From NCBI RefSeq assembly GCF_000174435.1, contig NZ_ACJN02000001.1, positions 485,658-549,657 of the forward strand: DNA of 64,000 nt, read 5' to 3'. Below the pieces are notes generated by a model. That model had not been told where the DNA came from. It searched no databases and saw only the letters and a list, made by a program, of their open reading frames with translations. This DNA comes from Desulfonatronospira thiodismutans ASO3-1. GTDB lineage: Bacteria; Desulfobacterota; Desulfovibrionia; Desulfovibrionales; Desulfonatronovibrionaceae. Of the stretch, positions 5,954-51,857 are shown one piece after another (the first letter of the stretch is position 1; every line of letters starts with the position of its first letter). The position numbers and the translations under genes were made by a program.

Positions 5954-6080
5954 AGATATCTATTCTATGTAAATCAGCAACAAGGTCAAGCTTCGATATA
6001 AGAAGTGGATGTGCCTGCAACCTTGAAAAAAATAACGAACACCTAAGTTCCGAATTCTGTACAATAAAGGTAGGTAATTG

Positions 6081-6194
6081 ATGGCAAAAATCCTGATCGT
6101 GGACGATGTACCGGCTAATATCAAGGTCCCGTGCCGGTTGCTGAAAGAATACCATCAGCTTATGGTGGCCAGCAATGGGGAAAAAGCCAGTTTC
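6081..6194 (+). pseudogene. Response-regulator receiver N-terminal fragment
   Basis: The translation starts MAKILIVDDVPANIKV, the classic beta1 and acidic pair of a receiver domain, and runs through ASNGEKA, then loses similarity. The frame happens to stay open into the Fic gene at 6303, but no receiver core follows. A receiver C-terminal remnant (about 9768-9824) lies on the same strand 3.6 kb downstream, so the original gene may have been split by incoming DNA. Confidence 0.65.
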
Positions 6195-6302
6195 ATAAGC
6201 ACGGGTATCACCACCAGGGTGAAGTCAAGAATTCTCTTGACGCATAAAGGATACTGGTTGAAAATCAAATTTCAGAATTATATCTACAAAGGAATTTTTT
6301 TC

Positions 6303-46891: not shown

Positions 46892-46955
46892 TGGAAGTAG
46901 GGGAGTGTGGGCGTATGGGAGTAGGGGCGTATGGAAGTATGAAAGTAGGGAAGTA
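46892..46955 (+). repeat. Degenerate octamer tract after the thioredoxin reductase gene
   Basis: Eight contiguous 8-base units from 46892: tggaagta, ggggagtg, tgggcgta, tgggagta, ggggcgta, tggaagta, tgaaagta, gggaagta. It starts 18 bases past the stop. Confidence 0.85.
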
Positions 46956-47006
46956 AAAACTTTTAACGCGGGCTTTGCCCACAACCTAGATAAGAAAAGA
47001 GTTTTG

Positions 47007-47256
47007 GCCCACAGATCACACAGATTGACCACGCGAGGCGCGTGGCAGGCACAGATAAAAGAGATTGAAGAAGCATTTTTTTCCTTGCGGGAATAAGAAC
47101 CCGCAAGGAAAAGGCATCAGCCGCTTGCGCGGGGGAAGATTACTCCCCGGTATCTACCGCGGATGCGGTGGAGACCATGTGCATACCAGGTTCTTCATTC
47201 CTGGTATGCACATAAAAGACCTCTCTTATCTGTGTCAATCTGTGTGATCTGTGGGC
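47007..47256. repeat. 250-bp inverted-repeat element interrupted by a small palindrome
   Basis: The left arm (47007-47063, gcccacagatcacacagatt...) pairs with the right arm (47221-47256, ctctcttatctgtgtcaatc...). The left arm alone carries the 21-bp unit CCACGCG-N3-CGCGTGGCAGG (47029-47049) in its middle. Inside are two more hairpins, about 47080-47110 (ccttgcggg/cccgcaagg) and 47179-47211 (gtgcataccagg/cctggtatgcac). No gene is seen. Confidence 0.7.
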
Positions 47257-47335
47257 AGTAGTCTTTTTCTTAAAAAAATAAGTGAGGCACAGTCCCAGTG
47301 CCAAGCGATGAACCCCCGTCATGGCTCAAATTTTT

Positions 47336-47450
47336 CTTGTTTTTTGTGACAGGGTTTCAGGAGTAAGTCACTGACTGCCCATACATGATGTGACTGCAAA
47401 AAATCATTTTGTTACGCGAACTACGCGAACCACGCGAGGCGCGTGGCAGG
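47336..47450. repeat. Dispersed repeat shared with 1318-1376
   Basis: About 47336-47370 (tttttgtgacagggtttcag...) is the reverse complement of 1318-1350, and 47430-47450 is the third copy of the CCACGCG palindrome found at 1356-1376. Between them stands half of the GATGTGACTGCAAAAA hairpin. Confidence 0.6.
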
Positions 47451-47523
47451 GCGCTTGACAGACCTCTGATTTGCTGACCTCCCAAAACATAGCCATGGTG
47501 AGTTGTCATGAGAAAAAGCAACT

Positions 47524-47730
47524 ATTCAACATGGTCCGGAAACTTTGCAAACAGGACGTAAAAACTCACTCCAAGGAAGCGTAAATCAAAACCTATACAC
47601 GCGTTTGATTGCCAGGATATTTCCTATAATATGCTTTGAATCAAGTTCGGTGTTGAACGGTTTTGATTAACGCTTCCTACGTCGTTCAGACAGTTTACGC
47701 CCTGTTTGCAAAGCCCCCGGATCATGCAGC
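47524..47730. repeat. Long stem element, copy 2
   Basis: Outer arms about 47531-47560 (ggtccggaaactttgcaaac...) and 47695-47724 (cctgtttgcaaagcccccgg) pair, as do inner arms ggaagcgtaaatcaaaacc and ggttttgattaacgcttcc. About 130 bases of the left part match 27090-27225. No coding capacity. This completes the 970-base gap between the thioredoxin reductase and arsR genes. Confidence 0.65.
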
Positions 47731-47787
47731 TTGACGCTTAGATTGTTCAGCTTTTGCAGGTGGCGAGTAGTTACGAGAAAATAATAT

Positions 47788-47821
47788 TTGACATGATATA
47801 AACAACAATTTATATGTTTAT
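47788..47821 (+). promoter_or_regulatory. Promoter/operator of the arsR operon
   Basis: TTGACA (47788-47793), 17 bases, TATATG (47811-47816), inside ATTTATATGTTTAT (47808-47821). ATAAAC-N12-GTTTAT forms an imperfect dyad over the -10, suiting ArsR-family autoregulation. Layout and 14 bases are shared with the thioredoxin reductase promoter at 45890. Confidence 0.75.
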
Positions 47822-47846
47822 ACAACAGATGTAAGAGGCCTATGAA

Positions 47847-48173
47847 GTGACTGATTCTAAAAACAACCAGCCCAGGGAAAGCCTGCAAAATGCCGCCCAG
47901 CTGGCCAAGGCTCTGGGAGATGCCAACCGCCTGCGCATTCTCAGGTGTCTGGGAAGTGAAAGGCAGTCGGTGAGCGCCCTTGTGGAGCAGCTGGATCTAT
48001 CCCAGCCCCTTGTCTCTCATCACCTGCGTGAACTCAAAAGGCTTTTGCTGGTTATTGTGGAAAGGCAGGGGCCTTTTGTCTACTACAGCTTAAACGACCC
48101 CAGGGTGTTAGATGTTCTTGATCAACTTGAACAGCTGGCTCAGCTGGTTCTGGATAAGCGCAGCAATCTTTAG
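47847..48173 (+). CDS. ArsR-family transcriptional regulator
   Basis: The protein has 108 residues, starting at GTG 47847. LAKALGDANRLRILRCLGS and SVSALVEQLDLSQPLVSHHLRELKRLLLVIVERQGPFVYYSL form the winged helix-turn-helix. The CxC metal site of ArsR/SmtB sensors is absent; the only Cys is in ILRCLGS, so it is not an evident metal sensor. It heads the selenoprotein operon and likely represses it and the thioredoxin reductase through the shared ATTTATATGTTTAT element. Signal unknown. Confidence 0.9.
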   Translation: MTDSKNNQPRESLQNAAQLAKALGDANRLRILRCLGSERQSVSALVEQLDLSQPLVSHHLRELKRLLLVIVERQGPFVYYSLNDPRVLDVLDQLEQLAQLVLDKRSNL

Positions 48174-48186
48174 AAAGGATACATTT

Positions 48187-48660
48187 ATGAGTGCAGATAC
48201 TGAAGCCCTGAAAAAAAACATCCTGGACCTGGTCCTGAATCTGGAGCCTGAAGAGGCCCTGGACGCCTTTTCCGGTGCTCTGCGGGAGGTTTTATCCAGG
48301 CTGGAAGACGAGCAGAGGGTAAGGTTTGTCCTGGCACTTCTGGAAAAAGGAGATGAGGACAAGATCTCCAGCATGGTGCATCTGTGAATGGCCAAATGCC
48401 TGGACGAAGGTGTCGATCCAACGCATATGTGTCAGAGCCTGGTGGACAGGATCTCCAGGTCCCGGGCCTTGAACAGTATTGCCGAGCCGGAACTCCTGCC
48501 TCTTTTCGAGGACTGGCTGGAAGAGCTGGAAAAGGAGTTTGTCAGGCAGGCAGAAAAGTCACAAAGCTCAGATGCCGCCCTGATGGCGGAGAAACTGGGA
48601 CTGAGCATGGCCGGAGCCCAGTTTTTGAAGGCCAAGCTTGAGCAGGAAGGCAAGATCTAA
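48187..48660 (+). CDS. Unknown protein with an in-frame UGA (candidate selenoprotein)
   Basis: AAAGGA precedes ATG 48187. The frame reads 66 codons, meets TGA at 48385-48387 and continues in the same frame for 90 codons starting with ATG 48388. Read through, the product is 157 residues, helical and acidic, with the junction SSMVHL-U-MAKCLDEGVDP (U67 followed by Cys four residues later). The second part has no ribosome site. A hairpin GGACGA-AGGTG-TCGATCC (48400-48417) starts 12 bases after the TGA and has GGU in its loop as in known bacterial SECIS elements. Alternative: two separate genes, 48187-48387 and 48388-48660. I do not recognise the family. Confidence 0.55.
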
Positions 48661-48704
48661 AAGCCCAAGCAGCATATCCTGCAATTTCAAAACGTGGAGG
48701 AGTT

Positions 48705-50456
48705 ATGAGCCCCAGGCGCATTATTGTTCTCATGGTACTGTCTCTGGTGATTTCCGGAACAGCCTTGTGGCTTACAAATCTGGAAATTGAATTCGAAGAT
48801 GCAACCTGGGAAGAAGTGCATGAAGAAGCTGAAGCAGGCGGGTATCAAATTCTTACCACTGAAGAGCTTTATAAAATGCACCAGGAAGTCGAGGACCTGG
48901 TGATAGTGGATACCAGGCAGGAATGGGAATACCGCCTGGGACACGTTGAAAATGCAGAAAACTTTTTCATGCAGCCCTGGTTCTGGGACCGGTGGATGAA
49001 AAGAGGTGACCTGCGCGACTTTTTAAGCCAGCATGCCAGGGACAAGGAGACGGCCCTGGTCTTCTACTGAGACGGCATGGACTGAGTCGTAAGCGACTCC
49101 GCGGCCCGGGTGGCCGTAAGTCTTGGTTATGAAAACGTCTACCGTGACCCCAAGGGCTTCGAGGCCTGGGAAGAAGAAGGCTATCCCGTGCACAGCCTCC
49201 CGGCTGAAGCTCCGGCCACACCCCTTGAGGCTGAAGGCCCAGGCACTCTGGAAGGCCTGGCCCTTTTCGGCACCCTGGCAGCGGTCTTTGCCGGTGGTCT
49301 GGCCCTGAACCTGACACCCTGCGTCTATCCCCTCATCCCCATCACCGTATCCTTCTTCGGGGGCATGGGCGGTCAGGGCCGGGGCAGGCTGCTGATCCAC
49401 GGCGGGCTTTACATCCTGGGCCTGGCTACAACCAACTCCATCCTGGGAGTGGCCGCAGCCCTGACCGGCGGGCTTATAGGCGGACTGCTGCAAAACCCCT
49501 TAGTGCTGGCCGGCATTGCCCTGGTTCTGCTTATCTTCGCCCTGAGCATGTTCGGATTCTGGGAACTGCGACTCCCGGCGTCTCTAAACCAGGCCGCTTC
49601 CAGGTCATTCGGCGGATATTTCGGCAGCCTGTTCATGGGATTGACCATCGGCGTGGTGGCCGCGCCCTGCATAGGCCCCTTTGTCCTGGGGCTGCTGGCC
49701 TGGGTGGCTACCATGGGCAGCCCGCTTCTGGGATTTGCCGTCTTTTTCACCCTGAGCCTTGGTCTGGGGGTCCCGCTGTTCTTTCTGGCGGTATTCTCCG
49801 GCAAGCTGCAGAGCCTGCCCCGCTCCGGTGAATGGATGATCTGGGTCAGAAAACTTCTGGGCTGGATCCTGGTGGGCATGGCTGTTTATTTTCTCAAACC
49901 GCTGCTGGGAGATCCCGCCGGGACCTTTGTCATGGCTGCTGTTTTTCTGGCCGCAGCCCTTCATCTGGGCGTTCTGGACAAGACTCAGGCCGGGTTCAGG
50001 GCTTTTGTCTGGATGAAATCCGCTGTTCTCCTGGTGGGCATGACTCTGGCGGTCTTCATTGCCGGGTCCTACGCCCTGCAGGGACCCGGAGTGGCCTGGG
50101 ATGATTATTCCGAGGCGCTTCTGGAACAGGCCGGGGAAGAAAACAAACCGGTGATGCTGGACTTTTATGCTGACTGGTGCGCACCGTGCAGACAGTTAGA
50201 GAATGTAACGTTTCAGGATCAGGATGTAGTTGAGCTTTCCCGGGAGTTTATCACCATCAAGGTGGACATGACGCGCGGGGGAGTGGAACTTCATGAAAGG
50301 CTTGTGGCTGAGTACGAGGTGCGCGGAGTCCCCACGGTAATATTTCTCACCCCTGAAGGGCAGGAGATGGAGGATCTGCGTGTGGTGGACTTCATTCCGC
50401 CCGGCGAATTCCTTGGACTTATGCACAATGCTTTACAGAAAACAGAGAAGGAGTGA
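48705..50456 (+). CDS. Rhodanese-DsbD-thioredoxin fusion with two in-frame UGA (putative selenoprotein)
   Basis: Read through TGA at 49068 and 49083 the product has 583 residues. An N-terminal anchor (IIVLMVLSLVISGTALWL) is followed by a rhodanese domain (LVIVDTRQEWEYRLGHVENA) whose active loop reads ALVFY-U122-DGMD-U127-VVSDSAARVAVSLGY; relatives have FYCxGxxCxxSxxAA, so both UGA replace Cys. Next comes a DsbD/CcdA membrane domain with the paired Cys in NLTPC206VYP and AAPC322IGP, and a C-terminal thioredoxin domain with WC492APC495. Hairpins follow each UGA (49084-49099, 49102-49116). It probably moves electrons across the membrane to periplasmic sulfur chemistry. Without read-through it would appear as two ORFs, 48705-49070 and 49110-50456. 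Confidence 0.88.
49068..49116 (+). other. Two in-frame UGA codons with SECIS-like hairpins
   Basis: TGA at 49068-49070 and 49083-49085. First hairpin: GAGTCG-TAAG-CGACTC (49084-49099), 13 bases after the first UGA. Second hairpin: CGGCC-CGGGT-GGCCG (49102-49116), 16 bases after the second UGA, with GGGU in the loop. Bacterial SECIS elements sit at about these distances inside the coding region. Confidence 0.7.
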
Positions 50457-50458
50457 TT

Positions 50459-50770
50459 ATGCTCAAGGTCATGTTTTTCCTCAATGAGCCCAGGGGCAAG
50501 CCCTGAAAGAATTTTCTGAAGATGATGCCCAGGCTGGGCGAAAAATACGATGTGGAAATAGAGACGGTTTCCAAGCCCATGCAGGAATACCATACCGATG
50601 AATACTTTGAGCAGGACCTGCCTGTGGCTCCGGCAGTGATGGTAGGCGACGAGGTGGTTGTGGAAGGGGCCAACGTGGATGAGTACACAGTGGAAGAGGC
50701 CATCTGCCGTCACCTGGGGCTTCAGCCCCCGGAGAAAAAGGGTTTTCTGGGACGCATGTTCGGAAGCTGA
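50459..50770 (+). CDS. Small thioredoxin/glutaredoxin-like selenoprotein (in-frame UGA)
   Basis: ATG 50459 follows GAAGGAG and reads MLKVMFFLNEPRGKP, then TGA (50504-50506), then KNFLKMMPRLGEKYDVEIE to the stop at 50768, in one frame, 103 residues. The UGA is where a redox Cys is expected (GGKPC-type loop before the first helix). Later VAPAVMVGDEVVVEGANVDEYTVEEAI has the cis-Pro and strand pattern of a glutaredoxin-like fold. A hairpin GCCCA-GGC-TGGGC (50527-50539) starts 20 bases after the UGA. It directly follows the rhodanese-DsbD gene (3-base gap), so it is a likely redox partner. The downstream ATG at 50522 would give only a headless domain. Confidence 0.82.
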
Positions 50771-50808
50771 GGCCCTGCCCGGCTGTAAAAAATCAAGGGA
50801 GTACAGAA

Positions 50809-51522
50809 ATGGCGGAACAAAACGGATCCACCAGAAAAGGCCCCGGGCGCGGGGCTATATTAAAGATCCTGGCTCTTTTGCTGTTTATCGTTGCGGCTGT
50901 TTATTCTGTTCAGTTCACCCAGCTGCGGGAATACTTCACCCAGGAAACCCTGGTGGCCTTTCTGGAGGATATCGGATGGTGGGCCCCGGCCGTATTCAGT
51001 CTTTTATACGCCATCGGGGTGTGCCTGTTTGTTCCGGGAACTCTTTTGGCTGGTGTGGGAGCAGCCCTGTTCGGTCCTTACGTGGGCTTTGTCTTCGTCT
51101 GGATCGGGGCCATGCTGGGGGCCAGCACCGCATTTTTTATCGGGCGCACCCTGGGCCGGGAATTTGCCGCCTCCCTTATAGGCGACAGGCTTAAGAAATA
51201 CGACGAGGCTATAGAGAGAAACGGCTTTGCAACTGTACTCTATCTGCGCCTGATCTACTTTCCTTTCACCCCCATGAACTTCGGGATGGGCCTGACCAGG
51301 GTCAGGTTCTGGGATTATTTCTTCGGCACCGCCTTTGGAATAGTCGTGGGGACATTTATTTTTACTTTCTTTATCGGTACGCTGCGCGATGTATGGCTGT
51401 CCGGGGAATGGAGCGGGCTTCTTTCCTGGCAGGTATTTCTATCCGTGGTCCTGTTTGCTTTTTCCCTATATCTGCCCAGGCTGGTAAAAAAGATAAAGGG
51501 TGAAAACGGGGCTCAAGAATAA
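50809..51522 (+). CDS. TVP38/TMEM64 (DedA-like) membrane protein
   Basis: The protein has 237 residues with about six hydrophobic segments. The VTT-domain signature is FVPGTLLAGVGAALFGPYVGFVFVWIGAMLGASTAFFIGRTLGREF and later YLRLIYFPFTPMNFGMGLTRVRFWDYFFGT. The family scrambles lipids or moves small molecules in membranes. It lies 38 bases after the selenoprotein gene and ends the operon. TVP38 genes are often near redox or selenium genes, which is only suggestive. Confidence 0.92.
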   Translation: MAEQNGSTRKGPGRGAILKILALLLFIVAAVYSVQFTQLREYFTQETLVAFLEDIGWWAPAVFSLLYAIGVCLFVPGTLLAGVGAALFGPYVGFVFVWIGAMLGASTAFFIGRTLGREFAASLIGDRLKKYDEAIERNGFATVLYLRLIYFPFTPMNFGMGLTRVRFWDYFFGTAFGIVVGTFIFTFFIGTLRDVWLSGEWSGLLSWQVFLSVVLFAFSLYLPRLVKKIKGENGAQE

Positions 51523-51560
51523 AATCCTCAAAAAAGGTTCTGCATCCCCTTATACGCAGG

Positions 51561-51857
51561 GTAACCATTCAGGGGGTACCAGCAATTGCTACCGAGAATA
51601 GACTTGAGGCATACTCCCCAGCCGTGAGCGGCAAAGCCGCCCGTGAGCAACGAAGTTGCCCGTGCCAAAAAAATCTTCTTAGGCACGGGAAGCCTTCAGG
51701 CTTCACACCCGACAAAAAATACGCTTTGCTGTCCTGCGGAATTTTAGCGGGCAGGCGGGTGTTCCGCACACACGGTTTTGAAGAATAAATATCCCCAGCA
51801 AGGCATTACCCGCCTGGCAGACAGGTAAATCGGCATATCTCCCCCCTGAAGGGTTAC
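51561..51857. mobile_element. Enlarged family-1 MITE variant, 297 bp
   Basis: Ends GTAACCATTCAGGGGG and CCCCCTGAAGGGTTAC with exact 8-bp duplication TACGCAGG (51553-51560 and 51858-51865). Only the outermost 35 bases or so match the family; the interior is unrelated and contains gccgtgagcggcaaagccgc and a hairpin ccgtgcc/ggcacgg. No ORF of interest. The gap 51858-52021 shows nothing. Confidence 0.85.

Follow-up and report, generated by a model that had tools for sequence, protein, structure and literature searches.

In DsbD, electrons pass from cytosolic thioredoxin through a membrane core to a thioredoxin domain, and from there to a periplasmic acceptor. The described system closest to the locus analyzed here is TsoB. 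The relevant part of a 2026 review (PMC13188914) presents TsoB as a protein with two selenocysteine (Sec) residues in the motif UxxxxU, credits it to Haft and Tolstoy 2025, and also gives TsoA, TsoC and a three-selenoprotein operon.

In the window, the whole 64-kb stretch of DNA that was analyzed, a reading frame that starts with ATG at 48705 is open up to a real stop (TGA, 50454-50456) except for two internal TGA codons. An earlier note on this DNA had joined two open reading frames across these codons, and its coordinates, frame, length of 583 residues and TGA positions (49068 and 49083) were all reproduced. The product matched NCBIfam model NF045694 ('rhodanese/DsbD fusion-like selenoprotein TsoB') with 913.1 bits at a cut-off of 805, with residues 7-575 aligned to positions 3-570 of the 572-position profile. 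Judged from the sequence, both UGAs are almost certainly Sec codons and the protein a rhodanese-DsbD-thioredoxin fusion, and we assign 48705-50456 to tsoB, with both UGAs read as Sec, at high confidence. The earlier note had held that such a fusion would be a new type of transmembrane selenium-based thiol relay. Its novelty is not supported, since the TsoB family and its operon were already named and described in 2025 and the locus is a known member of that family. The gene and its parts are as follows.

48705..50456, + strand: tsoB, double-Sec rhodanese/DsbD/thioredoxin fusion, 583 residues (NF045694)
48855..49175, + strand: rhodanese domain, residues 51-157 (Pfam PF00581, E 1.6e-13), spanning both UGAs
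49068..49070, + strand: first UGA (Sec122), corresponding to the catalytic Cys of rhodaneses; TGA in all 32 Sec-type sequences, Cys in L139
49083..49085, + strand: second UGA, Sec127; TGA in 32/32 Sec-type sequences, Cys in homologue L139
49272..49904, + strand: DsbD transmembrane domain, residues 190-400 (Pfam PF02683, DsbD_TM, E 4.4e-42), with invariant Cys206 and Cys322
50097..50354, + strand: C-terminal thioredoxin domain, residues 465-550 (Pfam PF13899, Thioredoxin_7, E 1.6e-14), with WCAPC, Cys492/Cys495

The fusion proposed in the earlier note was borne out by the three Pfam domains, which occur in the expected order, and the order rhodanese, DsbD, thioredoxin is supported by the predicted structure as well. 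An N-terminal anchor is followed by the rhodanese domain with U122-x4-U127, the DsbD membrane domain and a DsbD-gamma-like thioredoxin domain. The PF00581 match (51.4 bits, gathering cut-off 22.2) extends past both UGAs, confirming that the downstream residues continue the rhodanese. The predicted rhodanese fold superimposed on E. coli GlpE with Z 14.3 (rmsd 2.5, 107 residues), and the predicted thioredoxin fold on DsbD-gamma (2fwe) with Z 18.7 (rmsd 1.8, 117 residues). Assignment of the membrane domain relies on Pfam and the conserved cysteines, because the structure comparison barely probed this domain. The model of the whole protein had a pTM of 0.56, so the arrangement of the domains relative to one another is uncertain. 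The DsbD model NF001419 scored 248.7 bits on TsoB, below its cut-off of 330, and aligned to residues 190-575 only; by this profile comparison the protein has a DsbD-like core without being a canonical DsbD.

In the structure model, U122 directly follows strand 117-121 and U127 lies just ahead of helix 129-139. U122 aligned with the catalytic-loop Cys of the solved rhodaneses 6mxv, 1qxn (the polysulfide-sulfur transferase Sud) and 2hhg, and in this alignment U127 had no counterpart in any of the three. The earlier note had placed the UGAs at the two cysteines of the rhodanese loop. This is correct for U122; canonical rhodaneses, however, have a single catalytic Cys, and U127 corresponds to the second Cys of the C-x4-C subset, members of which are found near tsoB in some relatives. 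Across 18 aligned sequences, six chalcogen positions were invariant. Two are the Sec sites 122 and 127, always U except for C in L139; the others are Cys206, Cys322, Cys492 and Cys495.

By analogy with DsbD, a membrane-anchored Sec rhodanese would stand in for the periplasmic acceptor DsbD-alpha. A cytosolic donor of the thioredoxin type would reduce Cys206/Cys322 of the membrane core, which would hand the electrons to Cys492/Cys495 in the thioredoxin domain. The Sec122/Sec127 pair of the periplasmic rhodanese would receive them next and would reduce a periplasmic substrate containing sulfane sulfur, selenium or a disulfide. Topology, the direction of electron flow, a diselenide or selenenyl-sulfide cycle and the nature of the substrate are all suggested by homology to DsbD and rhodaneses. 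The thiol relay of the earlier note is a sensible guess at the mechanism, and taken by itself we regard such an electron relay as moderately probable. Sec-containing TsoB might instead be a sulfur or selenium transferase, the Sec loop taking up sulfane sulfur as in Sud and the DsbD-thioredoxin part recycling or releasing it. The rhodanese domain does resemble Sud (1qxn) in sequence and fold, and the same genome encodes two related C-x4-U rhodaneses (FYCRSFRU and FYCMNPAU; L140:3631-4086 and 6023-6280, at ~768-771 kb of contig C3). These adjoin apparent molybdopterin oxidoreductase, cytochrome-b-like, TorD-like, TusA-like and YeeE-like genes, likely forming a sulfur-metabolism cluster that uses single-Sec rhodaneses; the molybdopterin oxidoreductase, TusA-like and YeeE-like neighbours fit a transferase. 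On the other hand, all four relay cysteines of the DsbD and thioredoxin domains are invariant, and a complete electron conduit within the fusion argues for reduction as the central activity. A transferase role is possible but rather unlikely. Note that it and the electron relay are not exclusive and could both hold.

Returning to the double-Sec reading, we compared tsoB with its relatives, which were gathered by a scan of the genome collection and by surveying the phylum in 395 genomes. TGA was present at both sites in 31 distinct relatives that are 50-70% identical to TsoB over the entire protein, i.e. in 32/32 sequences including that of the window. The best partial match, at 82% identity, was to L032, a Desulfonatronospira MAG; identity to L020, a Desulfonatronovibrio MAG, was 69%. 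Going by these matches, the window probably derives from this group of sulfur-metabolizing bacteria. Of the matches that exceeded the TsoB cut-off in this survey, nearly all contain two TGAs and a single one contains none. This stop-free homologue (L139:4538-6232; genome G278, contig C128) is full length and reaches 913 bits with NF045694. It reads FYCAGPDCVRSD, the two Sec positions being encoded by TGC and TGT; the search for a homologue with Cys at both positions, as suggested in the earlier note, was therefore successful. L139 is the only Cys/Cys TsoB among the genomes surveyed, and a closer survey of its class revealed no second Cys version. Its genome also carries a TGA/TGA copy within a tso operon (L141), and neither tsoC nor tsoR was present beside the Cys/Cys copy in the 10.5 kb read. 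Sequencing error at the UGAs was rejected, both TGAs being common to 31 other, independent sequences.

In-frame TGA joins of two open reading frames are common in the 64-kb window (31 listed). Eight others were scanned, of which six had no family match and two had one; one of the latter consists of two ordinary adjacent genes (kdtA-like and kdsB) with a normal TGA stop between them. A TGA join alone therefore proves little, since such joins are frequent here and mostly lack a family match. Given the conservation of TGA/TGA in relatives and the existence of the Cys homologue, the tsoB join is well beyond chance.

The standard code yields two open reading frames at the locus, which could be two genes: a truncated rhodanese fragment of 121 residues that stops at the UGA, and a DsbD-thioredoxin protein starting with GTG at 49110. 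Related genomes indeed encode DsbD-thioredoxin proteins whose match to the profile begins only at about residue 170. However, the rhodanese match runs through both UGAs, the rhodanese segment after them is under protein-level constraint (pN 0.21 versus pS 0.57, with L020), the UGA pair is kept in 32 sequences, and an open Cys/Cys version exists. Moreover, the GTG lies inside a hairpin and is not preceded by an obvious ribosome-binding site just 5' of it. Two separate genes are very improbable. Reassignment of UGA in the host code, for example to Trp or Cys, would fit an open frame in which TGA encodes any residue, but is barely credible, as UGA is an ordinary stop here (it ends tsoB and tsoC and separates the kdtA-like gene from kdsB), the genome has full Sec machinery, and both sites are Cys rather than Trp in L139.

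The double-Sec reading agrees with the gene content of the genome. The sel genes that the earlier note had wished to see were all found above their cut-offs: selB (376.6 bits), selA (605.5 bits), selD (396.6 bits) and tRNA-Sec (selC; 81.1 bits). Across genomes with tsoB, selA was present in 20 of 22, the two without it being 62% and 79% complete. As most genomes of the phylum (355 of 395) contain selA, this co-occurrence amounts to consistency rather than strong support. The selD gene (L010, C2:173669-174595) itself holds one in-frame TGA; SelD is known to occur as a selenoprotein.

Folding of single sequences 3' of the UGAs gave inconsistent results, and shared hairpins emerged only from the alignment. 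The 32 aligned sequences show two hairpins 3' of the first UGA.

49084..49099, + strand: hairpin 1, GAGUC/GACUC stem, overlapping the second UGA; loop at a distance of 18 nt from the first
49101..49117, + strand: hairpin 2, putative bSECIS, GCGGCC-CGGGU-GGCCGU; loop CGGGU, 6 bp, -9.5 kcal/mol

In hairpin 2, compensatory changes occurred at alignment columns 36/48 (GC 24, AU 5, CG 2) and also at columns 39/45. These pairs link third positions of Ala or Val codons, and the changes therefore leave the amino acids as they are. Eight cells were changed on both sides, compared to a mean of 1.2 in shuffled alignments (0/500 as high) and 0-3 in slid versions. By the rules for stem, loop and spacing given in the pertinent part of PMC13188914, a stem of at least 4 bp and a loop with G followed by G or U are present in 32/32 sequences; for the 30 sequences that have all 6 bp, the energy lies between -7.8 and -10.9 kcal/mol. 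The bSECIS that the earlier note had proposed to look for is thus represented by a covarying candidate. Wobble positions nearby are nearly fixed (Val128 GTC in 32/32, Ala134 GCC in 31/33, Val136 GTG in 31/32), and over codons 118-140, around the UGAs, wobble entropy averages 0.99 bits versus 1.49 elsewhere; this codon range was picked after the hairpin had been seen.

Hairpin 1 is also well kept, with 98.1% of cells paired and a G at loop position 1 or 2 in 31/32, and showed no two-sided covariation in the 32 sequences. It is possibly an accessory element or a first bSECIS. A hairpin after each UGA, as the earlier note had it, is therefore partly right: two conserved hairpins exist, but only the one after the second UGA covaries, and the other overlaps that UGA. 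An Rfam search of 48100-51600 returned chance matches only. Counted from the first and the second UGA, the loop of hairpin 2 begins after 36 and 21 nt, respectively. Because both spacings are within the permitted range, we infer that this one element may serve both UGAs; insertion of Sec at the two sites would be directed mainly by the putative element at 49101-49117.

The earlier note had overlooked that tsoB is flanked by two further selenoprotein genes, tsoA and tsoC. The neighbourhood contains:

47847..48173, + strand: tsoR, ArsR/SmtB-type regulator, 108 residues, GTG start (NF045707, 'metalloregulator TsoR', 146.2 bits, cut-off 115)
48187..48660, + strand: tsoA, small selenoprotein, 157 residues, motif L-U-M-A-K-C (NF045695, 190.3 bits, cut-off 170)
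48385..48387, + strand: UGA of tsoA, Sec67; TGA retained in every relative aligned across the site
50459..50770, + strand: tsoC, thioredoxin-fold selenoprotein, 103 residues, NEPRGKPU (NF045708, 144.9 bits, cut-off 45)
50504..50506, + strand: UGA of tsoC, Sec16; TGA retained in all relatives found
50809..51522, + strand: gene for a DedA/TVP38-type membrane protein (Pfam PF09335, VTT domain, E 8.7e-25)

The locus is a tsoR-tsoA-tsoB-tsoC(-dedA) operon with three selenoproteins. The order tsoR-tsoA-tsoB-tsoC is repeated in most relatives with enough flanking sequence, often with dedA as the last gene, and tsoR is kept upstream of tsoA in most; the dedA-type gene lies 3' of tsoC in L020, L021, L032, L103, L108, L110, L111, L116 and L141. 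TsoC is predicted to adopt a thioredoxin-like fold (pLDDT 85), its model resembling thioredoxins and, about as weakly, ArsD, with no match at E <= 0.001. The hairpin after the tsoC UGA is weak in the window sequence alone (-7.7 kcal/mol). Neither TsoA nor TsoC matched a Pfam family, so that they give no functional lead; in the proposed electron relay they would be partner selenoproteins.

Variations on this arrangement were seen in several genomes. Two copies of tsoC are present in L101, L105/L141, L106, L108, L109, L114, L119 and L122, the extra copy being more divergent (e.g. NDPCGLTU) and sometimes separated from the other by a second ArsR-type gene. The gene ahead of tsoB in L025 (5228-5902) encodes a regulator in which ArsR is fused to a rhodanese, a possible hint at sensing of reactive sulfur. 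In L023 (8188-9088), genes 3' of tsoC include one related to GcvH (NF045810) and a thioredoxin-like one of the HUIPC type, the latter below its family cut-off; they are possibly other parts of a sulfur system. In the window itself, ~0.95 kb upstream of tsoR (46900-47840) is without a clear gene, and short motifs are repeated upstream of tsoR, such as CGCGAGGCGCGTGGCAGG near 47033 and 47435.

Taking gene, hairpin and operon together, TsoB could work through a Sec122-Sec127 diselenide cycle fed by the DsbD core across the membrane, with one bSECIS decoding both UGAs (at 21 and 36 nt), and the tso operon could serve a selenium-based transmembrane reduction of periplasmic sulfane sulfur or metalloids. 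We put this complete scheme forward tentatively, as a doubtful whole. The locus is a clean example, resting on several kinds of evidence, of a double-Sec membrane redox protein in an operon that carries four UGA-Sec codons. The covariation of the bSECIS and the rare Cys/Cys homologue offer ready constructs (Sec/Sec versus Cys/Cys, and hairpin variants) for asking what two Sec residues add.

Compared to known systems, TsoB shares with DsbD (NF001419) a membrane domain in which two Cys are conserved and, at the C-terminus, a CAPC-bearing thioredoxin domain, but has a Sec rhodanese where DsbD has DsbD-alpha at the N-terminus. With GlpE, Sud (1qxn) and 6mxv it shares the rhodanese fold, U122 occupying the position of their catalytic Cys; it differs from them in that Sec replaces this Cys, another Sec follows five residues later and a membrane electron conduit is fused to the domain. 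Other Sec rhodaneses, namely forms 1-4 in the table of the review (PMC13188914) and NF041203 (LYCAU), likewise carry Sec in the active loop of the rhodanese; as far as that table describes them, they have one Sec per protein, in the motifs UxxS, UxxG and CxU. With the TsoB family (NF045694), the locus has in common the UxxxxU motif, the two Sec residues, the domain order and the operon partners TsoR, TsoA and TsoC. Nothing material sets it apart from this family; the loop reads UDGMDUVVSDSA here and UAGL[TA]UVRSDSA in most relatives.
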